IMG/VR virus record: IMGVR_UViG_3300041809_003036
Location: 1 to 26,345 of that record
DNA from: a virus
Length of the DNA stretch: 26,345 bases
Strand: one strand, 5' to 3'
A model generated the notes under the pieces. That model saw only the letters and a program-made list of their open reading frames with translations. It had not been told where the DNA came from and did no database searches. The position numbers were made by a program, and so were the translations under genes. Below are positions 22 through 14,489 of the stretch, in pieces; the first letter of the stretch is position 1, and the number at the start of each line of letters is the position of its first letter.

Positions 22-891
22 TTGGCTGAAGTCGCGTTTCTCGGATTGGGCGTCATGGGCTATCCGATGGCCGGCCATCTCAAAGGTCGCGGCGGCCACG
101 ACGTCGTCGTCTACAACCGCACCGCGGCGCGGGCCGACATCTGGGTTGCGCAGCACGGCGGCGCGTCCGCCGCCACGCCGCGCGAAGCGGCGCGCGGCCG
201 CGCGGTCGTCTTCGCCTGCGTCGGCAACGACGACGATTTGCGCGCCGTGACGCTCGGCCCCGACGGCGCCTTCGCCGGCATGGCGAAGGGCGCGATCTTC
301 GTCGACCACACCACCGCTTCGGCGAACGTCGCGCGCGAGCTCGCCGCGGAAGCGGCGAAGCGCGGCCTTGGTTTCGTCGACGCGCCGGTCTCCGGCGGTC
401 AGGCCGGCGCCGAGAACGGCGCGCTGACGGTGATGTGCGGCGGCGACGAAGCGACCTTCGCCGAGGTCGAACCCGTGATCGCCGCCTACGCCCGCGCCTG
501 CAAGCTGATGGGGCCGGTCGGTTCCGGCCAGCTCGCCAAGATGGTCAACCAGATTTGCATCGCCGGCGTGGTTCAGGGGCTCGCCGAGGGCCTGCATTTC
601 GCCAAGCGCGCCGGCCTCGACGCCGAACGCGTGATCGACGTCATTTCGAAGGGCGCGGCGCAATCGTGGCAGATGGACAATCGCCACAAGACGATGATCG
701 CCGGCGCCTTCGACTTTGGCTTCGCCGTCGACTGGATGCGCAAAGACCTGGCGATCTGCCTCGACGAAGCGCGCCGCAACGGCGCGCATCTGCCGGTCGC
801 GGCGCTGGTCGATCAGTTCTATTCCGATGTGCAGGCGATGGGCGGCCGCCGCTGGGACACATCGAGCCTAATCGCGCGGCTGGAAAAGTAA
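22..891 (+). CDS. 3-hydroxyisobutyrate dehydrogenase-like NAD(P)-dependent oxidoreductase
   Basis: A cytosolic beta-hydroxyacid dehydrogenase of 289 aa, the usual length for this family, which oxidises 3-hydroxyisobutyrate or reduces tartronate semialdehyde or related short acids. The N-terminus carries the Rossmann dinucleotide motif GLGVMGYPMAGHL (residues 8-20). The substrate-binding signature DAPVSGGQAGA is at 120-130 and the catalytic lysine is K173 in GQLAKMVNQ, followed by the family KDL motif near residue 240. The start is TTG at 22, with AGGAG at 11-15 as ribosome binding site. A strong intrinsic terminator follows directly, so the gene ends its own transcript. It is host DNA outside the prophage. 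The family is certain; the exact substrate cannot be told from the sequence. Confidence 0.92.
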   Translation: MAEVAFLGLGVMGYPMAGHLKGRGGHDVVVYNRTAARADIWVAQHGGASAATPREAARGRAVVFACVGNDDDLRAVTLGPDGAFAGMAKGAIFVDHTTASANVARELAAEAAKRGLGFVDAPVSGGQAGAENGALTVMCGGDEATFAEVEPVIAAYARACKLMGPVGSGQLAKMVNQICIAGVVQGLAEGLHFAKRAGLDAERVIDVISKGAAQSWQMDNRHKTMIAGAFDFGFAVDWMRKDLAICLDEARRNGAHLPVAALVDQFYSDVQAMGGRRWDTSSLIARLEK

Positions 892-936: not shown

Positions 937-3258
937 TCACTTCGGACACGGCGGCTCGCCAGGCTTGCCGCAGGCGGGCGCTTTGCCGCCGGGCGGCGGG
1001 CCGACGTGGGGCGGCGGCGCACTCGGGGGCGGCGCCACGTGCGGCGGCGGCGCGGCGGGGGCCGGCGGCGGCGCGACATGAAGCTGCGGTTGCGGCGGCG
1101 GCGGGGCGGGGGCCGGCGGCGGGGCGAGCTTGATCTGCGGCGCCATGGTCTTGAGCGGCGCCGGACCCGGCGGCTTAGGCCCGCCGATTTCGCCCGGCGG
1201 CGGCCCAACTTTAAGCGACTTCACTTCCGGGTTCGGCGGCGGCGGCGCCAGCGGCGTCTTCAACGGCGCCGAGGTCGACAGCGGCTTCGGACCGCGGGCT
1301 CCGCTCGGACCCGGCGACGACGGAGCCGTCAACGGCGTCATGCCCGGCGCCGGCTTCAATCCGCTGGTCCCGCTCGACCCTGGCGACGGCGACGGCGTCG
1401 CCGGCGTCACGCCCGGCAGCGGCTTCAACCCGCTGGTCCCGCTCGGCCCCGGCGACGGCGACGGCGACGGCGTCAACGGCGTCACGCCCGGCGCCCGCTT
1501 CAATCCGCTCGGCCCTGGCGACGACGGCGCCGTCAATGGCGTTAAGGTCGGCGACGGCGCGCCGGTCGGCGGCGGGTCAGGCGGCGGACCGAGCGGCTTG
1601 CCCGGAGTCGAGCCGGCGGCAGGAGTCGACGGCAGCGGCGGCTTCGGCTTGACGCCGCCCGGCAGCGGCGACAACGGCGTCAAGGTCGGCGACGGCGCGC
1701 CGGTCGGCGGCGGGCCAGGCGGCAGACCGAGCGGCTTGCCCGGAGTCGAGCCGGCGGCCGGAGTCGACGGCGGCTTCGGCCTGACGCCGCCCGGCAGCGG
1801 CGGCGGAGGCGGCGGCGGATTCTGCGCTTGCGGCGGCGGGGGCGGCGGAGCGTCGCGCGGGGCGCGGCCCTCGTGGCGTCCGGCGTCGCGATAGGCGCGC
1901 GCGCCGATCAACAGCGGAATAGCGACCACAAGCGCCGGCAACACGCCAACCGCGCTCGGCGGCGCCGGCGGCGGCAGGTCGCGCCAATTGTCGTCTTCGG
2001 CCGCGTAGGAGAATTCCGGCGGCGGCGGAGGCGGCGGCGGGCCGTAGTCCGGGCCGTCGAACACATAGACCGGCTGGTCGGCGTAGACGTATTCCTCCTG
2101 CGGTGGCGGCGGCAGGTCGGCGTAGTCCTCCGGCGCGAACCCGCTTGGAGGCTGGGCCGCCGCGGCGAGAATCGCCAAGCGCCGTCCGGCGTCGGCGACA
2201 TGCGGCCCGTGCGGATAGCGGCGCAGATAGGTCCAGTAGGCTTGCGGCGTGTCCTGCGCCACGGCGCGGCGCCAGAACAGAGCCTCGCGCCGGGCGGCGA
2301 GAATCGCGCGCACGCGCTTCGCTTCCGGGGCGTTCGGATAGGCGGCGACAAAATCGGCGTAGCCTTGCAGCGTGTCGCGTCCGAGCGCGACCGAATAGGC
2401 TTGATCGGCCGGGAAGGCGCGGATCGGCTTGTTCGCCGAGTCGGCGTAGGCGGCGACGGCCGGCGGCGGCGGCGCGTCGGCGGCGCGCTCGAAGACGAAA
2501 TAGGGCGCGGAAAGCTTGGCCGCGCTCCACGGAACCTGTGCGCCGCCAGTCGCCTGGTTCACCTGGACGCGCGTCTGGGCGAAAACGTCCTCGATCGGCA
2601 CGCCGCCTTGGCGCATCGCTCCGGCCAGCGTCTTGGCGTAGACGCCATAGGGGCCTTGTTCGTCGCCGCCGATCGCGCCCGGCGCGGCGTTGAAGGCGAC
2701 GAGTTCGCCGGGATCGGGATCGACCAGCGCTAGGCCGCCGGCGAAAGGTTGACCCTGGCCGGGATAGGGGTTGGCGCGCGCCGCGTCGAGCACGACAATC
2801 CGCGCCCGTCCCGGCTCAGAGGCGAGCGCGTGGGCGAAGTCGGCGATGCGAACCGCCTCCATCGGCGTGTCCGAATCGCGGGCGAGCTGAGCGTCGACGG
2901 GAACGAAGAAATTATCGCCCTCGTATTGCACGCCGCGGCCGGCGAGATAGACGAAGGCTTGCATGTCCGGGCCGATCGTCGCCGCCTTGGCGAGAAAGTC
3001 GCGCATCGCCGCGCGCACGGAATTTTGGTCGAGATCGCGCGCGCCGACGACGTCGAACCCGGCCGCCTGCAGGGTCTGGGCGATCAGCGCCGCGTCGTTG
3101 ACCGGCGTGGCGATCGTCTGGTCGCCGTAGGTCGATTCGCCGATCACCAGAGCGATGCGGGGATTGGGCGGCGCAGCGCCTTGCGCGAATGTCACGGCAG
3201 GCGTCGCCCCCGCCAAGACAATCGCGGCGAACAGCGCGAGCGGCAAGCGTGCCATCAT
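937..3258 (-). CDS. Caspase-fold (peptidase C14-like) protein with substituted catalytic dyad and proline-rich tail
   Basis: A 773-aa protein. It has a signal peptide or N-terminal anchor (1-26, ending TFAQG), then a caspase p20-like domain (34-260). A linker follows with a hydrophobic segment at about 437-453, then about 300 residues of proline-rich repeats. Bacterial members of this fold normally read AGHG around the catalytic His and LDACR around the catalytic Cys. Here the segments read YLAGRGVQY (R108) and VLDAARANP (A160), so both catalytic residues are gone while the surrounding motifs (NFFVPVDA, GVPIEDVF) are kept. A proteolytically dead scaffold or ligand-binding protein is the natural inference. 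The start has GGGGAG upstream on the minus strand. The tail contains near-identical DNA repeats. Partners are unknown. Confidence 0.85.
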   Translation of the reverse strand: MMARLPLALFAAIVLAGATPAVTFAQGAAPPNPRIALVIGESTYGDQTIATPVNDAALIAQTLQAAGFDVVGARDLDQNSVRAAMRDFLAKAATIGPDMQAFVYLAGRGVQYEGDNFFVPVDAQLARDSDTPMEAVRIADFAHALASEPGRARIVVLDAARANPYPGQGQPFAGGLALVDPDPGELVAFNAAPGAIGGDEQGPYGVYAKTLAGAMRQGGVPIEDVFAQTRVQVNQATGGAQVPWSAAKLSAPYFVFERAADAPPPPAVAAYADSANKPIRAFPADQAYSVALGRDTLQGYADFVAAYPNAPEAKRVRAILAARREALFWRRAVAQDTPQAYWTYLRRYPHGPHVADAGRRLAILAAAAQPPSGFAPEDYADLPPPPQEEYVYADQPVYVFDGPDYGPPPPPPPPEFSYAAEDDNWRDLPPPAPPSAVGVLPALVVAIPLLIGARAYRDAGRHEGRAPRDAPPPPPPQAQNPPPPPPPLPGGVRPKPPSTPAAGSTPGKPLGLPPGPPPTGAPSPTLTPLSPLPGGVKPKPPLPSTPAAGSTPGKPLGPPPDPPPTGAPSPTLTPLTAPSSPGPSGLKRAPGVTPLTPSPSPSPGPSGTSGLKPLPGVTPATPSPSPGSSGTSGLKPAPGMTPLTAPSSPGPSGARGPKPLSTSAPLKTPLAPPPPNPEVKSLKVGPPPGEIGGPKPPGPAPLKTMAPQIKLAPPPAPAPPPPQPQLHVAPPPAPAAPPPHVAPPPSAPPPHVGPPPGGKAPACGKPGEPPCPK
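1538..1803 (-). repeat. Two near-identical ~130-bp tandem repeats encoding the Pro-rich tail
   Basis: Copy one (about 1538-1670) and copy two (about 1676-1803) match almost base for base, with a few substitutions and one short length difference. Both encode the motif GGVKPKPP...STPAAGSTPGKPLG...PPPTGAPSPTLTPL. A second family of shorter repeats, encoding SGTSGLKP-type units, lies at about 1310-1510. The repeats lie inside the caspase-fold gene and keep its frame, so they look like recent in-frame duplications. Confidence 0.8.
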
Positions 3259-3370
3259 GTGCTCTCCCCATCGCGGCCGATTGTGCGCCGCGAGACCGTG
3301 CTAATGAGGCTTTACGTCTGAACGACGTCTGAATAGGGGCGCCGTTGCGGCGGACCGACGCAGGTGTGCC

Positions 3371-3503
3371 GCGCAAGATCAAATGACATAGGCGGGATTG
3401 AGCGGGATTTGGCGGGCGGCCGCGGGCCTGAGGGCTGAAAACGTGGGCCTCTGCGGGCGTCGGCGGGAGCCGGCATAGCTCGGAGGGCGCGCAAGATCAA
3501 ATG
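3371..3503 (+). repeat. 15-bp perfect direct repeat, candidate transposase-binding sites
   Basis: GCGCAAGATCAAATG occurs at 3371-3385 and again at 3489-3503, 118 bp apart, in otherwise unrelated GC-rich sequence. A GCGGGA follows each copy about 8-10 bases downstream. Mu-family left ends carry several separated copies of the transposase recognition site, so this is a plausible pair of L-sites, but the match is to the layout, not to a known sequence. Confidence 0.5.
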
Positions 3504-3585
3504 GCGCAAAGCGGGAGGCGGCGGCCGAGCGGCGGTAATCTAAGCTGTTGAAACTGCGCGGGCGGCGTTTTGGCGGCGAGGTCGA

Positions 3586-3696
3586 ACCGGAAACCGGCCG
3601 CAAGGGCGGTGGGACGCGGAGAAACCGCGAAAAGGACCGGAAAACCGGGCGAAAACGCGAATATCGGCCGAAAAGAAGATTGTGGCGAACCGGAAA
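3586..3696 (+). repeat. Three evenly spaced ACCGGAAA direct repeats
   Basis: ACCGGAAA occurs at 3586-3593, 3636-3643 and 3689-3696, with periods of 50 and 53 bp, close to five helical turns. The copies sit in the gene-free left-end region and could be additional protein-binding sites for transposase or a nucleoid protein. There is no direct evidence of function. Confidence 0.35.
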
Positions 3697-3796
3697 GCGA
3701 AAGCGGCCTAAAAGGCGTCTTTTCGGGGTCTCAAACCGGCGGCGCGCCAGGCGCGGACGCCTCGCTAGGCAAACGACGCCGCTTCGAAATCGAGAG

Positions 3797-4075
3797 TCAA
3801 CGCGGGGTCGGCGACGGCGGCGGGGGCAGGCGGTCGCGGATCTCGCGAAGCAGGTCCCGCACGCCCTTCATCCAGCCAAAGATCAAGACGAGAATGCCGA
3901 CCGCAATCACACCCTCGAAAAGGGTCCAAACGGCCGACTCCCCGCCGACCGCGCCGGTCGCGACGATGACAAAGAGGACGAAATACGAAAGCGCCGCGAA
4001 ACCGAGCAGGCCGATCGCCAGACGGCCGAGAGCGTACCAATTTATAGCCCGTTCAACGGGCGCGCTCGAAGACAT
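3797..4075 (-). CDS. Small two-helix membrane protein downstream of the repressor
   Basis: This is a 92-aa protein with two hydrophobic segments (about 18-43 and 51-68). A charged amphipathic stretch (KGVRDLLREIRDRL) and a proline-rich end PPPPSPTPR follow, which should face the cytoplasm. It starts 10 bp after the repressor stop codon on the same strand, with GAGGG upstream, so it is probably co-transcribed with the repressor in the lysogen. I do not recognise a family. Position and topology fit a lysogenic-conversion or superinfection-exclusion protein, but that is inference from context only. Confidence 0.75.
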   Translation of the reverse strand: MSSSAPVERAINWYALGRLAIGLLGFAALSYFVLFVIVATGAVGGESAVWTLFEGVIAVGILVLIFGWMKGVRDLLREIRDRLPPPPSPTPR

Positions 4076-4085
4076 GGAAGGACCC

Positions 4086-4778
4086 TCACAACCGGTTGTC
4101 CCACCATATCACCTTGCCGATGATGGCCAAAGCGCCGTCGCGGCCGGGTTTGACGATCTCGATCGGGTAGCCGGCGTGATTGTCGGAAAGGATGGCGACG
4201 AAGCCCTCGCCGATGTCGCGCAGGCGCTTCAGACGCAGGTCGCGGCCCTGAATAAAGATGAAGATGTCGTCGAGCTTTTGCCTCTCGCGCGGCCCTTTGC
4301 GCGGAGGCGATCGGAACGGCCGTAGCTGCTTTTGACGCTCGTCGACGATCAGGATCGCGCCGTCCTGAATAGTGGGCGTCATCGAGTCGCCGGACGCCCG
4401 CAGACATGAGAGTTGAGCGTCGGGCGACGCGATCTTGCGAAGGAACTCGGCGGGGAACGGGAGTTCGCTGACGGCGCGGACGACGTCGGCGGCGCGCCCG
4501 GCGCCGGCCGCCGCCTGGACGTCGAGAACGGGGATTGTGACGACGTCGACGGCCGGCTCCGGGACGTTTGGCGGCAAGAAGAAATCGAGCGGCTTGTCGG
4601 ACGCTTTGGCGAGCGCGACCAGCTCGGCGAAGTCCGGCCAGGTCTTTCCGTCGATCCAGCTTTGCAGCGTCCGATAGCTGACGCCCGGATGGCCTTCGGC
4701 GAAGCGCATGGCGTTGCGCCTTCCGCCGATCGCTTCGGCGATGCGCTCCCGCAGACGGTCGAGCAAGTCATCCGGCAT
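4086..4778 (-). CDS. Prophage repressor, HTH plus S24/LexA-type autopeptidase
   Basis: A 230-aa lysogeny repressor, divergent from the early operon and in the place of the Mu c gene. The N-terminal part (about 1-65) is a helix-turn-helix domain (VSYRTLQSWIDGKTWPDFAELVALAKAS). The C-terminal part is an S24 peptidase: the nucleophile region is ASGDSM (S132), the general-base lysine probably K184 in RLKRL, and an Ala-Gly bond at about 91-92 (AAAGAG) is a likely self-cleavage site. This implies induction by RecA after DNA damage. A basic insertion (about 148-170) separates the two catalytic segments. The reading frame is open 51 codons further upstream, but that part crosses the operator, so I place the start at the ATG at 4778. 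A 12-bp palindrome (ACAACCGGTTGT, 4088-4099) covers its last codons. Confidence 0.88.
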   Translation of the reverse strand: MPDDLLDRLRERIAEAIGGRRNAMRFAEGHPGVSYRTLQSWIDGKTWPDFAELVALAKASDKPLDFFLPPNVPEPAVDVVTIPVLDVQAAAGAGRAADVVRAVSELPFPAEFLRKIASPDAQLSCLRASGDSMTPTIQDGAILIVDERQKQLRPFRSPPRKGPRERQKLDDIFIFIQGRDLRLKRLRDIGEGFVAILSDNHAGYPIEIVKPGRDGALAIIGKVIWWDNRL

Positions 4779-4823
4779 GACGGCGCCGCACGGAAAATTT
4801 CTGCGACCAAAAGCCAAGGACTC

Positions 4824-4852
4824 TTGACGCGGGTAGAAGAATTCTTCTACTT
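4824..4852 (+). promoter_or_regulatory. Early promoter with an 18-bp palindromic operator
   Basis: GTAGAAGAATTCTTCTAC at 4833-4850 is a perfect 18-bp palindrome between the divergent repressor and Ner genes. A TTGACG -35-like hexamer lies at 4824-4829, and TCTACT at 4846-4851 can serve as a poor -10 with 16-bp spacing. The palindrome would then fill the spacer of the rightward early promoter, where a repressor dimer would block polymerase. The operator is obvious in the sequence; the promoter hexamers are a best fit. Confidence 0.7.
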
Positions 4853-4873
4853 TGGCGTCTGCGCCGCCATCGA

Positions 4874-4902
4874 GTCGAAACTTTCTTCGGGCGCGTCGAA
4901 AC
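4874..4902 (+). promoter_or_regulatory. Paired GTCGAAAC repeats ahead of ner, possible second operator
   Basis: GTCGAAAC occurs at 4874-4881 and 4895-4902, exactly 21 bp apart, in the leader between the palindromic operator and the Ner start codon. Two-turn spacing on one face of the helix would suit a small regulator such as Ner. This is a weak, inferred site. Confidence 0.3.
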
Positions 4903-4912
4903 ATGGGCCAAA

Positions 4913-5242
4913 ATGCCTCGACCACGGACACTTACGGGCGGGTGGCACCCCGCCGACATCGTCGCAGCGGTGCGAAAGAAGGGGTCGTCGCTGGTCAGGA
5001 TCGCCGGCGATCTCGGTCTCACCAGCTCGGCCGGCTCGCGGGCGCTGATCATTCCCCACACGCGCGTCAACCTGGCGATCGCCGCCGTGATCGGCGTCGC
5101 CCCGCACCTGCTCTGGCCACAATGGTTCGACGCCGACGGTCGCCGCATCCGCGCGCGTTCTCCTCGCCCGCGCATCTCTTCCACGACTCGCGTTTCAGAG
5201 TCGATCCCCACCGCGTCCGCCCCCTCGAAATCCGCGGCCTGA
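4913..5242 (+). CDS. ner: Ner-like DNA-binding protein
   Basis: A 109-aa protein, first gene of the early operon. The N-terminal 75 residues match the Ner/Nlp winged-helix family: GWHPADIVAAVRKKGSSL, then a recognition helix region, then NLAIAAVIGVAPHLLWPQWF and DGRR. In Mu, Ner dampens early transcription and also represses the repressor promoter. The C-terminal 35 residues (Ser/Arg/Pro-rich) extend beyond the usual family length of about 75. I see no strong ribosome binding site ahead of the ATG. The gene ends 3 bp before the ParB-like gene. Confidence 0.88.
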   Translation: MPRPRTLTGGWHPADIVAAVRKKGSSLVRIAGDLGLTSSAGSRALIIPHTRVNLAIAAVIGVAPHLLWPQWFDADGRRIRARSPRPRISSTTRVSESIPTASAPSKSAA

Positions 5243-5245
5243 GAA

Positions 5246-6061
5246 ATGCCAGAGACTATCCGAATTGACGCCATCGACGCTAGCGGCCGGTTGCGGCCGG
5301 TCGAGCCCGACCACGTCGCCCTGATTGCCGCCTCGATCGAAGAGCGCGGCCTCAAAGAACCGCTCGTCGTGCGCCCGGCCGGCGACGGCTATAAGCTGAC
5401 GATCGGCGCGCATCGGCTCGCCGCGGTCAAGGCGCTCGGCTGGACCGAACTTGTCGTCGGCGACCAGGTCATCATCCGCGACGAGGCGGAGACCGACGCC
5501 AAAATCTCCGAGATCGACGAGAACCTGGCGCGCCACGAACTCAACGCGCTCGACCGCGCGGTGTTCCTTGCTGAGCGCCGCCGGCTCTACGAGGAGGCGC
5601 GCCGCGTGGCCTCGAAAGGCGGCGACCGGAAGTCCGAGCAGTTCAAAGCGCAATCGTTGCGAATGGATTTTTCGCCCCGATTTACCGAGGACGTCGCCGA
5701 GCGCGTCGGCCTGTCGGAGCGCACGGTTCAGCTCGCGCTGCGCATCGCCTCCGGCCTCGACCGCGAGGCGATGCAGACGCTGCGCGGCACGCGGATCGAG
5801 CGCAACCAACAGGAGCTGCTGGCGCTCGTCGAGTTGTCGGCGCCGCAACAGGTCAAGGCCGCCAAGGCGATCGCCGAGGGCGGGGCGAAGTCGGTGCGCG
5901 AGGCGCGCGTCGCGATCGGCCTCGACAAGGAAGTGGCCAACGATCCGCAGGGCCGCGCCTACGCCGCGCTGCTGGCCAATTGGGAGAAGGCCGACGCCAA
6001 GACCCGCCGGGCGTTCCTCAAGGCGATCGACGCGCAGATCGTCAAGCCGGCGAAGGGGTGA
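5246..6061 (+). CDS. ParB/Spo0J-like nuclease-domain protein
   Basis: A 271-aa protein. The ParB N-terminal domain (about 1-95) contains the phosphate-binding motif GAHRLAAVKALG, corresponding to the family box II. A KorB-like helix-turn-helix follows (FTEDVAERVGLSERTVQLALRIA, about 149-171), then a charged helical C-terminus. ParB proteins bind centromere-like DNA and slide as CTP-dependent clamps, but no ParA partner or obvious parS array is present here. Similar proteins are found in the early operons of Mu-like phages, where the role is not established; regulation or help in replication is possible. It starts 3 bp after ner. Confidence 0.85.
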   Translation: MPETIRIDAIDASGRLRPVEPDHVALIAASIEERGLKEPLVVRPAGDGYKLTIGAHRLAAVKALGWTELVVGDQVIIRDEAETDAKISEIDENLARHELNALDRAVFLAERRRLYEEARRVASKGGDRKSEQFKAQSLRMDFSPRFTEDVAERVGLSERTVQLALRIASGLDREAMQTLRGTRIERNQQELLALVELSAPQQVKAAKAIAEGGAKSVREARVAIGLDKEVANDPQGRAYAALLANWEKADAKTRRAFLKAIDAQIVKPAKG

Positions 6062-6066
6062 CGGCC

Positions 6067-6300
6067 ATGCGCGCCCCTGAGACCTATTCGAACCAAGACG
6101 TCGTTTACGCCGCCGCTCAGATCATGGAGCGCATCGTCCGCGCGCAGATCAAGGTCGTCACGCGCAAGATGTCCGCCGCGGAACGCGCCCGCTTTCTCGC
6201 CGATCTCAAGTCGGCGCTGCGGGTCATTCGCACGATCAAGAGCGTGTCGAAAGAGATCGTCGACGAACGCCCGGCCGCTGCGCCGGAGGCCGCCGTCTGA
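6067..6300 (+). CDS. Small helical protein between parB-like and transposase genes
   Basis: A 77-aa protein predicted to be almost all helix (SNQDVVYAAAQIMERIVRA, then RKMSAAERARFLADLKSALRVIRTIKS) with an acidic, alanine-rich end. No family is recognised. The ATG at 6067 lies 5 bp after the ParB-like stop, and its TGA overlaps the transposase ATG by one base, indicating translational coupling. Such small genes are common just upstream of gene A in Mu-like phages. Confidence 0.7.
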   Translation: MRAPETYSNQDVVYAAAQIMERIVRAQIKVVTRKMSAAERARFLADLKSALRVIRTIKSVSKEIVDERPAAAPEAAV

Positions 6301-8624
6301 TGCGCGACTGGCTCTCGCCTCAGGAACTCGCCGACCTCGCTTTGCCGGGCCTGCCCGACACCAAGCAAGGCTGGAACGAGCTGATCGACCGCGAGGGCTG
6401 GCTGCAGCGCAAAGGTAAGGTGAGGCCGCGCCGCGGCAAAGGCGGCGGCTTCGAATATCACGTCGATCTGCTGCCGCCGGCGGCGCTGGCGATTTACGCG
6501 GCGCGGGCGATCGGCGCGGTCGAGATCGCGCGCGACGACCTCGCCGCCGCCGCAGCCGACCCGCAGGCGGCGCAGCTCACGTTGCCGGCGCTGGAGTCGC
6601 GCGACGCGCGCCTGGCGTTGATCGCGGCGGCCGACCGCTTCGCCCGCAACGCCTCGCTGTCGCGCCGCACCGCCGACACCGCCTTCTGCGCGCTCTACGG
6701 GCTCGACAAACTCGACATCGCGCCGTGGATCAAGGCCGCCGTGCGCCGTCTTTCGCCGCGCACCCTCGCCCGCTGGCGCGAGCAGACGAAGCATGGCTCA
6801 TCCGCGCGGCTCGGCGTCGATCGCGGCGCGGCGCGGCGCGGCAAGGGGCTGCTGGCGACCGCCGAAGGCGGCGAGGTCAAGCGCTACATACTCGCGCTGG
6901 TTGCGCATCAGCCGCACCTTTCCGCAGATCACGTGCGCGAGTGCGTCGCCGCCAAATTCCCACAGCTTTCGCCGCCGCCGGTGCGGACCTTTCAACATGT
7001 TTTGAGGGACCTCAAACGGACCGAAGGCGCGCTGCTGGCCAAGATCACCAATCCCGACGCCTTCAAGTCGCGCTTCCGCCTCTCCGGCACGAAATCGCAC
7101 CCGGTTTCGCGCCTCAACGAGCTCTGGCAGATCGACGCTTCGCCCGCCGACGCGCTGTGCGTCGACGGCCGCCATTCGCTCTACGTCTGCATCGACATTT
7201 TCTCGCGACGGATCGCCATCCAGGTCACGCGCACGCCGCGGGCCGAGAGCGTCGCGCTGCTGATGCGCCGCGCCATCCTCGCCTGGGGCGTACCGGAGCG
7301 GGTCAAGACCGACAACGGCTCGGATTTCAGGGCCAAGGCGACGCAACGGCTGTTCGCCTCGCTGCAGATCGAGACCGAAGCCTCGACGCCGTTCTCGCCG
7401 GAGCAAAAAGGCCACGTCGAGCGCTCGATCGGCACGCTGCAGCGCGATCTCATGCCGTTGCTGCCCGGCTTCATCGGCCACAGCGTCAAAGACCGCAAAG
7501 TCATCGAAGAGCGCAAGGCGTTCTCGGCGCGGCTCGGCGAGAGCGACGCCGAAGCGTTCTGCGTCGAGTTGAAGGCCGCCGAGCTGCAGCGGCTGTGCAA
7601 CGAATGGGCGGAGAACCGCTACGCCCATCGCCCGCACGAGGGGCTTGCCGGCGCAACGCCGTTCGCGACAGCCGCCGCTTATCCAGGAAAGCTGAAGCGC
7701 ATCGACGACGTGCGCGCGCTCGACCTGTTGCTCGCGCCGATCGCCGGCAAGGACGGGTTGCGCACGGTCGGCAAGACCGGCCTGCGCATCGATCATTCGC
7801 ACTACATCTTCGCCGGGAAGATGCCTGGCGCGCCGGTGTTCGTGCGCATGGACCCGGCCGACATGGGCCGCGCCTTCGTCTTCGAGCCCGACGGCGAAAC
7901 CTATCTCGGCGAGGCGGTCTGTCCCGAACTCGCCGGCGTCGATCCGGCCGAAGCGGTGGCGCGGGCGCGCGCCGAGCAAAAGAAGCTGCTCGAAGCCGGC
8001 GCCAAGGAACTGCGCGCCGACATGCGCAAGATCAAGCCGCGCGACCTGGCGCAGGCGGTGCTCGGCCGCGCCGAGGAAAACGCGGCCAAGATCGTCGCCT
8101 TCCCGCGCGGCCACGACGTCTACGCGACGCCGGCGCTCGACGCCGCCGGCGAAGCGCTGCGGTTGCCGCCGCCGGCCCCGGAGCTGCCGTCGGCCGGCGA
8201 AGCGCGCGCGCTGATGGCGCAATACGAGCGGCGACACGACGCCAATGTCGCCAAGGTCGAGCGCGAACTCGCCGGTGCGCAGGCCGACTCAGCCGGCGAC
8301 GTCGTCGCGCTGCGAGCGCGCGCGACGTTGCCGCAGCGCATGGCGTTGTTTCGCGAACTCGACGCGCTCGATCGCAACGGCGTCGCTCTCGCGCCGAGCG
8401 ACATGAGCTGGCGCGACGCTTTCCGCCGCGCGCCCGAATTCATCGGCGCGATGACGACGCCGTCCGAGCGCTACCGCCACGTCCAGTTCCTGCTGGCGAT
8501 CCAGGCGACCCATGAGGCGCTGCATCCTTACGAGGACCGCTGGCTCTCTCACTACGCCAAGGGCGGCGAATACGAGACGACGGCCGGTCTGGTCGCAGAT
8601 TTTGGCGAGGCGGCGCTCAGGTAA
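6300..8624 (+). CDS. A: MuA-like DDE transposase
   Basis: A 774-aa transposase that would cut and join the phage ends during integration and replicative transposition. The N-terminus is a Mu-type winged helix (WLSPQELADLALPGLPDTKQGWNELIDREGW). The RNase H-like core has the acidic triad D279 (WQIDAS), D338 (KTDNGSDF) and E374 (GHVERSIGT), with 35 residues between the second Asp and the Glu. A beta-barrel Mu C-terminal domain follows (about 480-560), then a helical tail probably used to contact MuB. It overlaps the upstream gene by one base. Its length is longer than the 663 aa of Mu MuA, mostly in the tail. Family assignment is certain. Confidence 0.95.
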   Translation: MRDWLSPQELADLALPGLPDTKQGWNELIDREGWLQRKGKVRPRRGKGGGFEYHVDLLPPAALAIYAARAIGAVEIARDDLAAAAADPQAAQLTLPALESRDARLALIAAADRFARNASLSRRTADTAFCALYGLDKLDIAPWIKAAVRRLSPRTLARWREQTKHGSSARLGVDRGAARRGKGLLATAEGGEVKRYILALVAHQPHLSADHVRECVAAKFPQLSPPPVRTFQHVLRDLKRTEGALLAKITNPDAFKSRFRLSGTKSHPVSRLNELWQIDASPADALCVDGRHSLYVCIDIFSRRIAIQVTRTPRAESVALLMRRAILAWGVPERVKTDNGSDFRAKATQRLFASLQIETEASTPFSPEQKGHVERSIGTLQRDLMPLLPGFIGHSVKDRKVIEERKAFSARLGESDAEAFCVELKAAELQRLCNEWAENRYAHRPHEGLAGATPFATAAAYPGKLKRIDDVRALDLLLAPIAGKDGLRTVGKTGLRIDHSHYIFAGKMPGAPVFVRMDPADMGRAFVFEPDGETYLGEAVCPELAGVDPAEAVARARAEQKKLLEAGAKELRADMRKIKPRDLAQAVLGRAEENAAKIVAFPRGHDVYATPALDAAGEALRLPPPAPELPSAGEARALMAQYERRHDANVAKVERELAGAQADSAGDVVALRARATLPQRMALFRELDALDRNGVALAPSDMSWRDAFRRAPEFIGAMTTPSERYRHVQFLLAIQATHEALHPYEDRWLSHYAKGGEYETTAGLVADFGEAALR

Positions 8625-8647
8625 TCGCGTGCGCTCTTCCCGCAAAA

Positions 8648-8678
8648 CCCCGGCGCAGCGTGGCGTCACGCGCCGGGG
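8648..8678 (+). other. Strong hairpin in the A-B intergenic leader
   Basis: CCCCGGCGC (8648-8656) pairs perfectly with GCGCCGGGG (8670-8678), and the loop contains an inner GTG/CAC pair. No T-run follows on the plus strand, so it is not a classic terminator. It may stabilise or process the RNA between the transposase and MuB genes. Confidence 0.55.
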
Positions 8679-8698
8679 AGTCCCCGAAAGCGTTGGTC

Positions 8699-8724
8699 AA
8701 AAAAAGGGCCGCCCGAAGGCGGCC
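8699..8724 (-). terminator. Leftward intrinsic terminator between A and B
   Basis: GGCCGCC (8707-8713), CGAA loop, GGCGGCC (8718-8724) is a perfect 7-bp stem. Read on the minus strand, it is followed by C and seven T residues (complement of 8699-8705), which is the textbook form of an intrinsic terminator. No minus-strand gene is seen here, so it would stop antisense transcripts entering gene A from the right. On the plus strand it is only a hairpin without a U-tract. Confidence 0.65.
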
Positions 8725-8747
8725 GAGAAATTTCGAAGGTGGAAAGC

Positions 8748-9521
8748 ATGACAGACAACGCTCAAATCGTCAAACCGGGCTCGCTGGCGCCGTTGAAGAA
8801 CGTCGCCGGCTTCATGGCGCTGGTGACGAAACTGCAGCGGCGCGGGCCGCATCTGCCGAACCTCGGCGTGATGTACGGCCATTCGGGGCTGGGCAAGTCC
8901 TACGCGTCGATCTACGCCCAGAACAAGACGCGCGCGGTGCGGGTCGAGGTCGGCGAAAGCTGGAACCGCAAGACCTTCGTTCGCGCCATCCTGCTCGAAT
9001 GCGGCGTCACCGACCCGAAGGGCGCGACCGCCGACCTGGCCGCGCAAGCGATCAGCCTGCTCGGCGACGAACCGGCGCGGCCGCTGATCATCGACGAGGC
9101 CGACAAGCTGGTCGACAAGAAGCTGATCGAGACCGTGCGCGAGATCTCGGAAGCGAGCCAGGTGCCGGTGCTGCTGATCGGCGAGGAGCTGTTGCCGCAG
9201 AAGCTGGCGCGGGTCGAGCGCGTCCACAACCGGGTGCTCGACTGGTACGGCGCCGAGCCGTGCGACCTCGACGACTGCAAGCTGCTGGCGCGCATCTTCC
9301 TCAACGGCGTCAAGATCAGCGACGATCTGCTGGAGATCGTGCGGGTCAAGGGCGAGGGTCGGGCGCGCCGCATCGTCGTCACGCTTTCCGGCATGGCCGA
9401 CTGGGCGCGCAATTCCGGCGCGCGCGAGATCGACGCCAAGACCTATTCCGGCGCCGTGTTCACCGGCGAAGCGCCACGCGCCCGCTCGGGCAAGCTGATG
9501 CAGGCCGGGAGGTTTGCATGA
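8748..9521 (+). CDS. B: MuB-like transposition ATPase
   Basis: A 257-aa AAA+ ATPase that in Mu coats target DNA, delivers it to the transpososome and gives target immunity. Walker A is GHSGLGKS (44-51) and Walker B is PLIIDEAD (about 112-119). An AAA sensor-like stretch (VPVLLIGEELLP) follows. It is shorter than Mu MuB (312 aa) and appears to lack the extra N-terminal DNA-binding domain. I prefer the ATG at 8748, served by GAAGGTGG, over an in-frame GTG 9 bp upstream. Its stop overlaps the next start (ATGA). It is separated from A by a structured 123-bp gap, so its level may be set independently. Confidence 0.92.
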   Translation: MTDNAQIVKPGSLAPLKNVAGFMALVTKLQRRGPHLPNLGVMYGHSGLGKSYASIYAQNKTRAVRVEVGESWNRKTFVRAILLECGVTDPKGATADLAAQAISLLGDEPARPLIIDEADKLVDKKLIETVREISEASQVPVLLIGEELLPQKLARVERVHNRVLDWYGAEPCDLDDCKLLARIFLNGVKISDDLLEIVRVKGEGRARRIVVTLSGMADWARNSGAREIDAKTYSGAVFTGEAPRARSGKLMQAGRFA

Positions 9522-10108
9522 GCCCTCTCATCTTCAGGCTCGATCTGCCGCGCGGGCCAGATCACTACTGGAAAGCCGCCTGCGACTTCGGCCCGAAAGG
9601 CTTCACCGTCGGCGAACTCTTCTGGGCGACCAACGCCAAGACGCGCGGCGTCCTCAGCGAGTGGATCAAAGCGATGGTCGCGCGCGGCCTGATCGCGTTG
9701 ATCGAGAAGCGCGACGTCAAGCCGCGCGGCCAGTTCGTCTACGCCGTGGTGCGGCCGACGACGCGGGCGCCGATCGACCCCGACATCAAGCACGGCCGCG
9801 TCGCGCGTCATTTGTGGACGGCGATGCGCAACCTGCCGATGTTCACGGTCGGCGAACTCGCCGCCGCGGCTTCGACCGACGAGGTCATCATCTCGCACAA
9901 GAGCGCTTCCGACTACGTGCGCAAACTTGAACTCGCCGGGATGCTGGTGGTGGTGCGCGAGGCGAAACGCAAGAGCCTCAACTCCGGCGTCTACCGGCTG
10001 AAGAAGAGCGCCGACACCGGGCCGCTCGCGCCGCGCGAGATCAGAGCCAAAGTGCTGGTCGACCGTAACACCGGCAAGCCAATCGGACAGGCGGAGGCGA
10101 CGCTATGA
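9518..10108 (+). CDS. Tandem winged-helix protein of the early operon
   Basis: A 196-aa protein made of two similar halves. Each has FTVGEL followed by a helical stretch and a beta-hairpin ending: FTVGELFWATNAKT... to QFVYAVV, and FTVGELAAAASTDE... to SGVYRL. This looks like an internal duplication of a winged-helix fold, giving a protein able to bind two DNA half-sites. No named family is recognised. It overlaps MuB and the next gene by ATGA junctions, so it is translated with them. A role in regulating or assisting transposition is inferred from position. Confidence 0.8.
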   Translation: MSPLIFRLDLPRGPDHYWKAACDFGPKGFTVGELFWATNAKTRGVLSEWIKAMVARGLIALIEKRDVKPRGQFVYAVVRPTTRAPIDPDIKHGRVARHLWTAMRNLPMFTVGELAAAASTDEVIISHKSASDYVRKLELAGMLVVVREAKRKSLNSGVYRLKKSADTGPLAPREIRAKVLVDRNTGKPIGQAEATL

Positions 10109-10536
10109 CCGCGCCCCTTTTTTCGCCGGCCACGGCCGTTAACGTTAACCCGCGCGGCAAGACGGACTTCCTCGCCAACGCCCGCAAGGGCTGGGGCGAG
10201 ACGCCGCCGGACTGGATCGTCCGCCTCGCCGAGGAATGCGAGCGGACGTCGGCCTCCGACGTGGCGCGGCGGCTCGGCTATTCCGTCGCCGTGATCTCCG
10301 GCGTGGTGCTCGCCTCCTACAAGGGCGACGTCGGCAAGGTCGAGGCCAAGGCGCGCGGCGCCTACATGGGCGAGCTGGTCGATTGCCCGATCCTCGGCGA
10401 GATCGAGCGCGACCGCTGCATCAGCGAACAGAACCACCGTCACGCCGCGACGTCGGCCAACCGGGCGCGCCTCTACCGCGCCTGCCGCAACGGCTGCGAG
10501 CATTCGCGGCTGAAGAGGGAGGGCTGCGATGTCTGA
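10105..10536 (+). CDS. HTH protein of a Mu-like early operon
   Basis: A 143-aa protein. Residues 35-70 look like a helix-turn-helix (DWIVRLAEECERTSASDVARRLGYSVAVISGVV). The C-terminal part has three cysteines and histidines (CPILGEIERDRC, NHRH, ACRNGCEH), which could bind a metal. It starts on the ATGA overlap with the previous gene. A transcriptional regulator is likely; the target is unknown. Confidence 0.75.
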   Translation: MTAPLFSPATAVNVNPRGKTDFLANARKGWGETPPDWIVRLAEECERTSASDVARRLGYSVAVISGVVLASYKGDVGKVEAKARGAYMGELVDCPILGEIERDRCISEQNHRHAATSANRARLYRACRNGCEHSRLKREGCDV

Positions 10537-10834
10537 CCTTCTGTCCGAGCAGATCGCGCAGTTCCGCAGTTCGTGGGGCCGTTACATCGACGACGGCGTC
10601 GGCCTCACCGGCCAAGCGGTCGAAGCGCTCGACGGCCTGTTCGCCTCGTACGAGGCGCAGGCGCGCGTGCTGGAGGGCGGCGGCGCGCCGGATCTCGCGA
10701 CCTTCGACGAAATCTGCCGCGCCGCCTCGGCCGAAGCGCGCGTCGTCGCCGACGTGGCGAAGAGACTGGAGGCGACGACGCAGCGGCTACGCAGGGCCGA
10801 GATCGTCGCCTTTCCGCAGCGGGGAGAGGGATGA
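10529..10834 (+). CDS. Hypothetical helical early protein
   Basis: A 101-aa protein, probably a helical bundle or coiled coil (SEQIAQFRSSWGRYIDDG, EALDGLFASYEAQARVLEGG, ADVAKRLEATTQRLRRAEIV). Residues FRSSW and YIDDG are the only distinctive parts. It overlaps its upstream neighbour by 8 bp and its downstream neighbour by 4 bp, with GGGAGG ahead of the start. No function can be assigned. Confidence 0.7.
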   Translation: MSDLLSEQIAQFRSSWGRYIDDGVGLTGQAVEALDGLFASYEAQARVLEGGGAPDLATFDEICRAASAEARVVADVAKRLEATTQRLRRAEIVAFPQRGEG

Positions 10835-11475
10835 TGCGCGATCTTCCTCTCGCCACGATCCTCGACGTCGTCGCCGGCCGCTTCGGCCTCGCCGCGGCGG
10901 CGGTGCGCACGCAGGCGAGCGACGAAGCGCGCCAGGCGCGACGCGTCTTCTGCTACCTGGCGCGCGGGCTTAGCCGCGCCGAGCCGGTCGAGATCGGCGA
11001 GACGATCCTCGAGCGGCCGGCCGAAGTGCTCGCCGCCGCCGACGAGATCGGCGCGGCGCTCGACGCCGGCCGCGACCTGGCGGCGCTGGTGGTCGAGGCG
11101 GAGATCGAGCTGCTGGCGCTCGCCGGCGTCGCTGAGGCGCGCGGCTATCCGCTGCCGACGACAGCGTCGGCCAAGACGACGGCGATGCGCATCGTCGTCG
11201 ACGGTCGCGACAGTTTCACCGCGCCGCATTCCGACCTGGTGGCGCTCGCCGCCGCCTATCTCGCTCGGCTGAAGGCCGAGCCGGCGCCGCCGCCGACGAC
11301 GCGCGAACTGTCGCCGTTCATGCGCGCCGCCAAGGACTACGACCTCGCCGTCGCAGCGGCGCGCGAGGCCCGCTTCACCGCCCGCGAGCGCGGCGCCGTC
11401 GCGGCGCGCGACCGCGCTTTCAACGCCCTTCTTACCCGTCTCGGAGTCGATCATGTCGAAGTCGCCCAAGTCTAA
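10831..11475 (+). CDS. DnaA domain IV-like DNA-binding protein
   Basis: A 214-aa protein. Its N-terminal 70 residues resemble the DNA-binding domain IV of DnaA: VVAGRFGLAAAAVRTQ, then ARQARRVFCYLARGLS, then VEIGETILERPAEVLAA. In DnaA the last part would carry the DHTTV signature, which is replaced here. No AAA+ ATPase domain is present. The rest is helical and alanine-rich with a basic end. A phage protein that binds DNA like DnaA without ATPase activity could recruit or compete with host initiation; this is inference. It overlaps the Gam gene by 23 bp. GGGGAGAGGG upstream is a good ribosome binding site for the ATG at 10831. Confidence 0.7.
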   Translation: MMRDLPLATILDVVAGRFGLAAAAVRTQASDEARQARRVFCYLARGLSRAEPVEIGETILERPAEVLAAADEIGAALDAGRDLAALVVEAEIELLALAGVAEARGYPLPTTASAKTTAMRIVVDGRDSFTAPHSDLVALAAAYLARLKAEPAPPPTTRELSPFMRAAKDYDLAVAAAREARFTARERGAVAARDRAFNALLTRLGVDHVEVAQV

Positions 11476-11980
11476 GACCAAGGCCGGCGCGCCGGCGCCG
11501 CAGAGCCGCGAGGAGGCGGCGTCCTACATCCGCCGCATCGGCGAGAACGCGCGCATGATCGCGCGCTTCCAGGCCGAAATGAACGACGCGATCGCCAGGT
11601 TGAAAGAGGACGCGGAGAACGCCGCCGCGCCGCGCGCCGCCGAGATTGAGCAGTTGACCGAGGGCTTGCGCGCCTGGTGTGACGCCAACCGCGCCGCGCT
11701 GACCGACAACGGCAAGCGCAAGTTCGCCGATCTCGGCACCGGCAAGATCGAATGGAGGAAGTCGCCGCCGAGCGTGAAGGTCAAGGGCGTCGAGGCGGCG
11801 ATCGCCGCAATCAAGGCGCTCGGTCTGCCGTTCCTCCGCTCCAAGGAGGAGATCGACAAGGAGGCGATGCTCGCCGCGCCCGACAAGGCGCGCCTCGTGC
11901 CTGGCGTCACGGTCGGCTCGGAAGGCGAGTTCTTCGCCGTCGAGCCGTTCGAAGCCGAGCTGACGGGAGGCGTGTCGTGA
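11453..11980 (+). CDS. gam: Gam-like host-nuclease inhibitor
   Basis: A 175-aa Mu Gam family protein. In Mu, Gam is a Ku-like dimer that binds double-strand DNA ends and shields them from RecBCD or AddAB. The long N-terminal helix (YIRRIGENARMIARFQAEMNDAIARLKEDAE) and the core RKFADLGTGKIEWRKSPPSVKVKG are typical of the family, as is the C-terminal LVPGVTVGSEGEFFAVEPFE. Length matches Mu Gam (about 174 aa). The stop overlaps the next start (GTGA). Confidence 0.93.
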   Translation: MSKSPKSKTKAGAPAPQSREEAASYIRRIGENARMIARFQAEMNDAIARLKEDAENAAAPRAAEIEQLTEGLRAWCDANRAALTDNGKRKFADLGTGKIEWRKSPPSVKVKGVEAAIAAIKALGLPFLRSKEEIDKEAMLAAPDKARLVPGVTVGSEGEFFAVEPFEAELTGGVS

Positions 11981-12213
11981 GAACGTCTCTTGCGCTCGCA
12001 GGAGCGGTTTGCGCGCTCGTCGCGGCGGGCGCGGTTTGGGGCCGGGTCGAAAATCCGCTTTTCGCCTTCCTCGACTCGATGAGCCTGGTCGCCTTCGCGC
12101 TGGCTTTGCTCGTCGATCGCGATCGCATGATCGCCCTCGACGCCTGCGAACAGACGCTCGACCTACTAAACAGCCACCCGCTGCGCCAGGTCGACGGCGA
12201 GCGCCGCCAATGA
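11977..12213 (+). CDS. Small membrane protein between gam and gemA
   Basis: A 78-aa protein with two hydrophobic segments (LALAGAVCALVAAGAVWG at about 5-22 and MSLVAFALALLV at about 36-47) and a polar cytoplasmic tail. It starts with GTG at 11977, with GGGAGG at 11965-11970, overlapping the Gam stop, and ends overlapping the gemA ATG. Translational coupling on both sides supports it as a real gene. Function unknown. Confidence 0.75.
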   Translation: MRTSLALAGAVCALVAAGAVWGRVENPLFAFLDSMSLVAFALALLVDRDRMIALDACEQTLDLLNSHPLRQVDGERRQ

Positions 12214-12902
12214 CCTCCGCCGCCCAGACCCGCGCGATCCACGCGATGCGCCGCGCGCTCGATCTGACCGACGACGACTATCGCGGGCTGCTGAAGGCGC
12301 GCTTCCGCGTCGTCTCGTCGAGCGACCTCGACGAGCGCCAGGCCGGCGCGCTGATCGAGGAGCTGAAGGGTCTGGGCGCGCCGGCGGCGAGCGGCAAGCG
12401 GCCGGCGGCTAAGACCGCCAGCGGCAAGTACGCGCCGGTGCTGCAGGCGCTGTGGATCGCCGCGTGGAACCTCGGCCTGGCGCGCTCGCGCGACGACGCG
12501 GCGATGCTCGCTTTCGTCGAGCGCCAGACCGGCCTTTCCCACACGCGCTTTCTCGCCGACCCGGCCGACGCGGCGCGGGCGATCGAGGGGCTGAAGGCGT
12601 GGATCGCCCGCGACGGCGGCGTTACATGGCCGACCCAGTGTAACGCCGACGAAGCGAGGCGGCCGCTCGCCTGGCTACGCAAATACGCGGTGACGCGGGC
12701 GATTGCGGCGAAACTGCAGGCCGCGGGCGGCTTCGCGCCGTTTATCTCAGGTCAAGACATCTGGCCCGGCGACGTCGAGGCCTACGGCTACCGCCGCGGC
12801 CTGAAGGCGGCGTTCCGGTTTTACGACGAGGCGGACTGGGACCGCCTCGCCGCGTGGCTGGGCGCGCGCCTGCGCGCCGCGCCGGCGAAGCGAGGGGACT
12901 GA
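12210..12902 (+). CDS. gemA: GemA-like regulatory protein
   Basis: A 230-aa protein of the Mu GemA family, which modulates host gene expression and DNA topology during Mu growth. The N-terminal signature is clear: IHAMRRALDLTDDDYRGLLKARF, with SSSDLDERQAGALIEELKGLG following. The C-terminal half contains the family-type ALWIAAWNLGLARSRDDAAMLAFVERQTG. An alanine- and lysine-rich linker (PAASGKRPAAKTASGK) joins the parts. A 10-bp inverted repeat lies inside the gene (12617-12648). It overlaps the upstream gene by 4 bp. Confidence 0.9.
   Translation: MTSAAQTRAIHAMRRALDLTDDDYRGLLKARFRVVSSSDLDERQAGALIEELKGLGAPAASGKRPAAKTASGKYAPVLQALWIAAWNLGLARSRDDAAMLAFVERQTGLSHTRFLADPADAARAIEGLKAWIARDGGVTWPTQCNADEARRPLAWLRKYAVTRAIAAKLQAAGGFAPFISGQDIWPGDVEAYGYRRGLKAAFRFYDEADWDRLAAWLGARLRAAPAKRGD
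12617..12648 (+). repeat. Perfect 10-bp inverted repeat inside gemA
   Basis: CGGCGTTACA (12617-12626) and TGTAACGCCG (12639-12648) are exact reverse complements, 12 bases apart. Because it lies within coding sequence, both arms also have to encode protein. It could be an operator-like dyad for a middle promoter or an RNA hairpin. Confidence 0.6.
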
Positions 12903-12904
12903 CC

Positions 12905-13240
12905 ATGCCGACCTACGACGAAGAGGGACCGCCTCGGCCGCGCGCGCCGGCGCCGCCGCCTTCGCCGACGGAACGGGCGCGCGTCGAGCTGGCGGCGCTG
13001 GAAGCGCGCGCCGCCTACGCCAAGGCCGAATTCGCCGTCATCGCCGCCGAGGCGACGCTGCGCGCGCGCCACGCCCGCGAGACGATCGGCGCGGCGGAAG
13101 GCCGCGACGCTTTCGAGCGCTGCAAGGCGGCGCACGGCGCGGCGCAAACCGCCTTCCGCGTCTATCGCCGCGCCCGCCTCGCCGCCGATCGCGCCCAGCG
13201 CGCCGCACTGTCCGCCAGCCGCGTGGAGGAAGCGTCGTGA
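12905..13240 (+). CDS. Alanine/arginine-rich coiled-coil protein
   Basis: A 111-aa protein with a proline-rich start (PPRPRAPAPPPSPTE) followed by one long helical, alanine- and arginine-rich segment (about 28-107) likely to form a coiled coil. AGGGGAC precedes the ATG at 12905. No family is recognised. It overlaps the next gene by 4 bp. Confidence 0.65.
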   Translation: MPTYDEEGPPRPRAPAPPPSPTERARVELAALEARAAYAKAEFAVIAAEATLRARHARETIGAAEGRDAFERCKAAHGAAQTAFRVYRRARLAADRAQRAALSASRVEEAS

Positions 13241-13476
13241 GGCTCGACGAGCTCGCCGACGAGATCGCGCTCGACACGCTGGAGCGCGAGCAGCACGCGG
13301 CCAATCTCGAACGCGCGATCCTCGCCGGCCACGTCAAGCGCGACCTCGCCGACGTGCGGATGATGCGTTCGCGCCACCCGCGGGCGCGCGCCGCCGCGCG
13401 GGCGCTGAAGCTCATCGCCGCCTGGCGCGAGCGCCTGCCGGCCGAATTCATCGCCGAAGTGGAGCGCGAACCATGA
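13237..13476 (+). CDS. Small basic helical protein
   Basis: A 79-aa, highly charged, probably all-helical protein (LADEIALDTLEREQHAANLERAILAGHVKRDLADVRMM). It starts with GTG at 13237 behind a good GGAGGA, overlapping the upstream stop. No family or function is recognised. It is the last gene before a lower-GC insertion-like cassette. Confidence 0.65.
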   Translation: MRLDELADEIALDTLEREQHAANLERAILAGHVKRDLADVRMMRSRHPRARAAARALKLIAAWRERLPAEFIAEVEREP

Positions 13477-13482
13477 GCTGCG

Positions 13483-13711
13483 CCTATCCGCTTAACACCC
13501 AAGGAGCACTGAGATGACCTATCGAGTCGTGTATGGCGAGACGATGCCTGCGTGGGAACAAACATTCCCCACGAAGCGCGAGGCCGAGGCCTTCGCGAAC
13601 CGGCACAAGAGCTTTGGCGACTTGATCTTCGAAGTATCGAAGGTCGCTCCGAACGATCCGCCCAAGTCGCTTATGGCGGCGCTCGCTGCTCGTGGGCGCT
13701 AACCGGATAGG
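13483..13711. repeat. Imperfect inverted repeats flanking a 62-aa gene
   Basis: CCTATCCGCTTAAC at 13483-13496 and GCTAACCGGATAGG at 13698-13711 are reverse complements at 12 of 14 positions, including the outer eight (CCTATCCG / CGGATAGG). They bracket a single small gene that is less GC-rich than its neighbours. This resembles a small inserted cassette; no transposase is inside it. Confidence 0.5.
13514..13702 (+). CDS. 62-aa protein in a lower-GC cassette
   Basis: A 62-aa protein with a good ribosome binding site (AAGGAG at 13500-13505). The middle reads FPTKREAEAFANRHKSFGDLIFEVSK, suggesting a small alpha/beta fold. By my count the gene is about 60% GC, whereas the surrounding genes look near 70%. 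It uses codons rare in the neighbours (GTA, CTT, TAT, ACA). It is bracketed by imperfect inverted repeats and is separated by gaps in an otherwise overlapping operon, so it looks like a recent arrival. No family recognised. Confidence 0.7.
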   Translation: MTYRVVYGETMPAWEQTFPTKREAEAFANRHKSFGDLIFEVSKVAPNDPPKSLMAALAARGR

Positions 13712-13717
13712 CATGCC

Positions 13718-13963
13718 ATGATCCTCGCCGTTTCCGATCACGCCCTGGTGCGCTTCCTCGAACGCGTCGGCGGCCTCGACGTCGAGGATTTGCGCGAGCG
13801 GCTGACGATCTCGCTGGCGCGCGCCGCAGAGGCCGCGGCGGCGCTCGGCGCGGTCGATTTCACCGTCAAGGCCGACGGCCTCAGCTATCTCGTCTGCGGC
13901 GGGGTCGTCGTCACGGTGCTGCCCGAACACGCGACGGCGCGCGCGCGGACGCCGACCAAGTGA
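13718..13963 (+). CDS. Hypothetical protein upstream of the Mor-like activator
   Basis: An 81-aa protein. The start ILAVSDHALVRFLERVGGLDVEDLRERL resembles the opening of small phage proteins that share an SDHAxxRFLER motif. The second half, ADGLSYLVCGGVVVTVLPE, looks like a beta-hairpin, as in RelE-like or DUF4258-like folds. I do not claim toxin activity because no partner antitoxin is seen. It overlaps the Mor-like gene by 4 bp. Confidence 0.7.
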   Translation: MILAVSDHALVRFLERVGGLDVEDLRERLTISLARAAEAAAALGAVDFTVKADGLSYLVCGGVVVTVLPEHATARARTPTK

Positions 13964-14376
13964 AATACCTCTGGCTCGCCAATCTCTATCGCGAGATCGC
14001 CGAGGGCGCGGGGCTGGAGGCGGCGCTCGGCCTGGCGCGGGCGCGCGGCGGCTTGCGGATCTCGGTGCCGCGCAACCCGCGCGCCGCGCCGTGGCTCAAC
14101 GAGGCGATGGGCGAAGCCGGCGCGACGCTGCTGTGCGAACTCTACGGCGGCGAGCTGATCGACCTGCCGATCGATCCCGTCTCGGGCCAAGGCCGCAACG
14201 CGCGGGCGCGGCGCATCCGCGAGGCGATCCGCGAAGGCAAGCTGTCGGCCAACGAGATCGCCATGATGGCGTCGGTGACCCGGCGCGCCGTGTTCAAGGC
14301 CAAGGCGCAGCTCCGCGATCTGGCGCCGTCGCCCGATCTCTTCGCGCCTCTTTCCAAGCGCGAAGCGCGGGACTAA
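13960..14376 (+). CDS. mor: Mor/C-type late (middle) transcription activator
   Basis: A 138-aa DNA-binding activator. The pattern GLEAALGLARARGGLRISVP followed by LLCELYGGELIDLP matches the dimerisation half of the Mor family. ARRIREAIREGKLSANEIAMMASVTRRAVFKAKAQL is its C-terminal helix-turn-helix. Mu Mor (129 aa) and C form one family and turn on middle and late promoters. Only one such gene is seen here, so it may serve both roles. It starts with GTG at 13960. The 16-bp dyad 32 bp after its stop, repeated ahead of gene I, is the likely target site. Confidence 0.82.
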   Translation: MKYLWLANLYREIAEGAGLEAALGLARARGGLRISVPRNPRAAPWLNEAMGEAGATLLCELYGGELIDLPIDPVSGQGRNARARRIREAIREGKLSANEIAMMASVTRRAVFKAKAQLRDLAPSPDLFAPLSKREARD

Positions 14377-14407
14377 ACAACCCGCTCGGCGCGACCGAAG
14401 CGCCTTT

Positions 14408-14423
14408 GGTGAACTCGTTCACC
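14408..14423 (+). promoter_or_regulatory. Late-promoter dyad upstream of the endolysin (Plys-like)
   Basis: GGTGAACTCGTTCACC is an inverted repeat with 7-bp arms, between the Mor-like gene and the endolysin, 83 bp before the endolysin ATG. The same arms (GGTGAAC, then TTCACC) recur at 24706-24721. A CTAAG-containing -10-like sequence lies about 33 bp downstream of the dyad centre. Binding by the Mor-like activator is inferred from position and symmetry. Confidence 0.7.
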
Positions 14424-14451
14424 CTGCATTCGGGATCGCTCCGCTCCTAAG

Positions 14452-14489
14452 CCTGAAACGCACGCGACCGCTTCGCGGGCGTCCTCAGG
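14452..14489 (+). other. Hairpin in the late leader before the endolysin
   Basis: CCGC-TTC-GCGG (14468-14478) is extended by ACGC/GCGT with a 2-base bulge (14462-14482), and then by CCTGA/TCAGG (14452-14489). No T-run follows, so a leader structure is more likely than a terminator. Confidence 0.35.

Follow-up and report, generated by a model that had tools for sequence, protein, structure and literature searches.

The window analysed here is the 26,345-base sequence of a virus record. It carries a Mu-like prophage and, outside that prophage, a bacterial gene for a 773-residue pseudo-orthocaspase whose catalytic dyad has been lost. The best reading of its product, to which we give a probability of roughly 0.6, is an exported, proteolytically dead scaffold or binding protein of the Rhizobiales cell envelope, built on a caspase fold. 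The loss of the active site is real, and the dead caspases to which the protein belongs, already described as pseudo-orthocaspases (PMC6426788), are an old and well-kept family. What is new here is a displacement of conservation from the active site to a helical YWxY module, a C-terminal cysteine pair, the existence of carriers with a single C14 protein and the absence of an association with photosynthesis.

Genomic setting

The left part of the prophage occupies 3365..26345 on the plus strand and encodes a repressor, a ParB-like protein, a transposase, GemA, an endolysin, Gp27, a terminase, a portal, a minor head protein and a Mu I protease. A related phage contig (L213) shows BLAST similarity to the window from 3340 onward, and when the window, L213 and L214 are read in parallel, their common start, TGTG, lies at 3365, where the left end reads TGTGCCGCGCAAGATCA; upstream of this point the flanks differ. 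Because the start codon of the caspase gene lies 107 bp outside this end, and because the flanks differ in L213 and L214, the gene is bacterial and not viral, and phage cargo was rejected as its source. Within the left end (3365-3503), the 16-bp sequence CGCGCAAGATCAAATG occurs twice, at 3370 and at 3488; the two copies are possibly transposase-binding sites. Deeper in the phage region, the ORFs at 8660-10108 and 14485-16407 have little annotation: one of 482 aa matches a PHROG regulator family at its C-terminus only, and two on the minus strand, for which Pfam gave no hit, may simply reflect open frames in GC-rich DNA.

On its other side, the caspase gene converges with a gene of the 3-hydroxyisobutyrate dehydrogenase type (22..891, plus strand; assigned by Pfam and synteny), whose best matches, 71-78% identical, come mostly from Hyphomicrobiales genomes. 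The same convergent arrangement is found in 21 further loci, including Microvirga and Rhizobiales bacterium 62-17, and this synteny across many Rhizobiales also marks the caspase gene as bacterial. Since this dehydrogenase gene is the only widely conserved neighbor in a crude all-frame clustering of nearby ORFs, the surroundings give no hint of an operon partner. In two plasmid-borne Rhizobium relatives (L259 and L260) the pseudo-caspase gene stands directly upstream of a same-strand MipA/OmpV-family gene, and in L260 curlin genes lie on its other side. An Rfam scan of the whole window gave no match, and the PADLOC models of anti-phage defense matched the protein with no family at E values up to 1.

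A caspase fold without its catalytic dyad

The ORF at 937..3258 runs on the minus strand from an ATG at 3258 and is real beyond chance, because residues 34-250 (2509..3159, minus strand) match Peptidase_C14 (PF00656) with an E value of 1.8e-26 and a score of 93.7 bits, where the cut-off is 21.4, and orthologues share 40-58% identity across some 360 residues. An AlphaFold2 model, computed from a shallow alignment of eight sequences (the window protein and related loci) and with a mean pLDDT of 73.6, predicts a caspase fold: residues 29-258 superpose on MALT1 with a Z of 24.4 and an rmsd of 2.1 Å over 193 residues at 21% identity, and Z exceeds 20 against both MALT1 and caspases. The paracaspase domain of MALT1 is thus the closest solved fold to the p20 domain, and the structural match spans residues 29-260. 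MALT1 itself is an active cysteine protease with Ig domains, unlike the window protein, in which PF00656 was the sole Pfam match. In the NCBIfam scan of the protein the sole hit, to caspase_w_EACC1, stayed below threshold (25.5 bits, cut-off 140).

The original prediction held that both catalytic residues of this caspase-fold protein are replaced within otherwise well-kept motifs, and the sequence bears this out. Codon 108, at the position of the catalytic His, is CGC for Arg (2935..2937, minus strand), and codon 160, at the position of the catalytic Cys, is GCG for Ala (2779..2781, minus strand). The surrounding motifs, YLAGRGVQYEGDNFFVPVDA and VVLDAARANP, correspond to YAGHGVQ and LDACRNN in 46 relatives with an intact His-Cys dyad (hereafter HC); both positions were placed by alignment with relatives, and R108 falls on the His of ‘YAGHG’ in a phmmer alignment with MALT1. 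The dyad is not hidden elsewhere, because the p20 domain contains no Cys and a single His (H143), and the only Cys of the whole protein are C763 and C771; a check of all Cys and His positions in p20 revealed no alternative dyad. The protein therefore lacks the His-Cys dyad of an active C14B protease, falls under the definition of a pseudo-orthocaspase, a bacterial p20 protein in which at least one of the two dyad residues is replaced, and is probably proteolytically dead. Pseudo-orthocaspases are further described as lacking a p10 domain; the observations that bear on this are the single Pfam match, to PF00656, and a structural match extending over residues 29-260.

The internal hydrophobic segment and the Pro-rich tail of about 300 residues that had also been noticed are both present. 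Residues 435-453 (1900..1956, minus strand) are the most hydrophobic stretch of the protein (Kyte-Doolittle 2.28), and the Pro-rich tail covers residues 455-762 (973..1896, minus strand), with 117 Pro among the 319 residues from 455 to 773 (37%). A conserved membrane segment at 435-453 was not adopted: by eye, Microvirga and plasmid-borne relatives show Pro-rich hydrophobic sequence there and no membrane-type stretch. Beyond these features, the present analysis adds the minus-strand reading, a predicted Sec signal peptide at residues 1-25 (ending in TPAVTFA|QG; 3184..3258, minus strand), recognized by sequence reading and its hydrophobic stretch, a helical module at residues 283-366 and the C-terminal Cys pair.

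A clade of cysteine-less pseudo-orthocaspases

Direct whole-protein scans of genome and viral contigs gave no match, because the search patterns fell in variable parts, and the dehydrogenase gene was used as bait instead. A profile built from six orthologues was then run against 397 genomes of the order and against 61 relatives of another carrier, yielding 136 usable sequences: 87 pseudo-orthocaspases, 46 HC proteins and three further non-HC proteins outside the clade. Being made from pseudo members, the profile favors such members; even so, any HC orthologue sharing the helical module should have reached a high score, and no such protein turned up. The 87 pseudo sequences form one clade (SH-aLRT 100 in a first tree), which is split from the HC proteins with UFBoot/SH-aLRT support of 100/99 in a more careful tree of 53 rows.

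Across these 87 sequences, Cys never occurs at position 160, which is Ala in 66, Ser in 13, Gly in six, and Thr and Pro in one each. Position 108 holds eight residue types (Y42, L13, H8, I8, V6, R5, Q3, E2) and ranks among the most variable columns of the clade. The window protein groups, with support of 100/97, with L123 (R/A) and with L129 and L162 (both E/A); R/A recurs in L087 and L124 elsewhere in the tree and occupies at least three separate places in all, and four relatives carried on plasmids, found in Methylocapsa, Phyllobacterium and Rhizobium, have Y/A. The alignment therefore speaks against the R/A pair as a state shared by a clade; it is one state of a drifting site and not a special one. 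At another locus (L154:6248-12101, minus strand) two pseudo-caspase genes, H/G and H/A, are adjacent, and their tails end in repetitive Arg/Glu/Ala sequence, not in a Pro-rich one.

Pseudo-orthocaspases of Rhizobiales, of YS, YA and HA types and with prolonged C-termini, were published in 2019, and the accessible parts of that report (PMC6426788) describe proteins like the present one: a p20 domain without the HC dyad, Ala in place of Cys alongside either a replaced or an original His, and a long C-terminus devoid of recognized domains, in the same order. The R/A combination is absent from the common pairs named in those parts, which also make no mention of three features that mark the clade studied here: the helical module with its YWxY motif, the pair of Cys at the C-terminus and the synteny with the dehydrogenase. 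Active-type HC orthocaspases of Rhizobiales (e.g. L175-L185) share the p20 fold and differ in their intact His and Cys, their conserved R161, N163, D199 and G200 and the usual lack of a C-terminal Cys pair. A catalytically dead p20 protein that is the sole caspase homologue of its cell is also known from Synechocystis, where the knock-out of SyOC tolerates H2O2 better (PMC7889975). SyOC resembles the kind of protein found here by description, not by alignment; it is cyanobacterial, and its class has a TAT-like N-terminus (PMC6426788). For alphaproteobacterial pseudo-orthocaspases, no mechanism was found in the literature searched.

Displaced conservation and a C-terminal cysteine pair

Residues H108, C160, R161, N163, D199, G200 and S205 are 96-100% conserved in HC proteins and degenerate or changed in the clade. 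Conversely, all 85 clade members that reach this region share R324, E325, W329, Y341, W342, Y344, G351 and L361, residues that are mostly not invariant in HC proteins, some of which show a weaker version of the module with W329 conserved. Conservation has thus shifted from the active site to the helical YWxY module (residues 283-366; 2161..2412, minus strand). Residues 262-387, when predicted alone, give helical hairpins with a mean pLDDT of 86.7, and their matches to BamD and TPR proteins are weak (best Foldseek E 1.2, Z 6.6, with BamD). With an E above 1, this Z and no Pfam match for the module, the names TPR or BamD-like were not accepted, and it is treated here simply as a helical-hairpin module.

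The protein ends in CGKPGEPPC (C763 and C771; 946..972, minus strand). A C-terminal Cys pair occurs in 40 of 62 complete clade members, against 0.03 expected when each tail is shuffled, and in five of 46 HC proteins, against 0.64 expected; as the sequences are related and not independent, the test shows only that the position of the pair is non-random. Endings such as CGKPGEPPCPK, CGRPGLPACH and CPPNQPRC follow a long, mostly Pro-rich stretch, and the pair is also present in L010, L018, L123, L162, L257 and others. Because the predicted signal peptide would direct the protein to an oxidizing compartment, C763 and C771 probably form a disulfide loop in the periplasm.

Taken together, these features make it most likely that the protein has no enzymatic role and serves in the cell envelope for binding or as a scaffold. 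The p20 fold would be retained as a binding or structural domain working together with the conserved helical hairpins, and the long Pro-rich tail would carry the probable disulfide loop at its end.

Alternative explanations

The protein might instead act as a decoy, or as a dominant-negative regulator, by pairing with an active C14 caspase in the cell that makes it, as cFLIP does with caspase-8. Further C14 genes are held by 16 of 41 carrier genomes, and in two related sequences (L168:6251-9637 and L169:6209-9589, both minus strand) a single ORF of 1127-1129 aa joins a p20 with intact HC dyad, a coiled-coil-like stretch rich in charge, an LS pseudo p20, the helical module and a Pro-rich tail, so that in this lineage the two p20 types may act as a pair. 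The fusion is known here from just these two sequences, however, and in the other 25 of the 41 carriers the dead protein is the sole PF00656 protein, a count that covers PF00656 only and draft genomes that may miss genes. A general role in regulating an active C14 caspase, including that of the decoy proposed among the possible functions, is therefore unlikely.

Decay is less probable still. A gene on its way out could have acquired R/A by drift, in keeping with the wide variation of the His site, and in the present strain the prophage 107 bp upstream may separate gene and promoter, so that a recent loss of expression in this lysogen is conceivable. Against decay, the frame is open over 773 codons with signal peptide, helical module and Cys pair all intact, and the dN/dS values (NG86) of 14 close pairs of dead-dyad relatives range from 0.044 to 0.174, with 0.079 and 0.140 in two HC pairs; these values describe pairs of relatives, the closest relative of the window gene being 58% identical. 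The original prediction had taken the double replacement as a sign of selection for a non-proteolytic role. A stable role is upheld, since the whole clade has lost the Cys, relatives are under purifying selection and no other decay is seen; selection of the R/A pair itself is not.

An enzyme using different, non-Cys chemistry in the same pocket could account for the retained fold and for the full conservation of D158, G107 and Y104, but the two catalytic columns vary, as does the substrate loop (D199, G200), and no new conserved polar set has appeared at the site, which makes such an enzyme very improbable. Hardly credible is a component tied to anoxygenic photosynthesis, a link proposed for alphaproteobacterial pseudo-orthocaspases from an order-level correlation (PMC6426788), since reaction-center genes (PF00124) occur in 10 of 52 carriers and in 65 of 345 non-carriers among the 397 genomes of the order (odds ratio 1.03, p 1.0, by a statistic that ignores phylogeny).

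Meaning for the family

An exported, dead caspase-fold scaffold of the envelope thus remains the preferred reading for the window protein. Its extension to the family as a whole is tentative: exported dead caspases with a YWxY helical module, a Pro-rich tail and a terminal disulfide loop may serve as envelope scaffolds in Rhizobiales, and the fusions with live caspases in some lineages could make regulated dead/live pairs outside the cytoplasm. The published photosynthesis link (PMC6426788) finds no support in this clade. Pseudo-orthocaspases are numerous, and the member found in the window leads to a clade with clear signatures; the invariant helical module, the terminal Cys pair and the single-copy carriers make it testable whether a dead fold functions in the absence of a live caspase.
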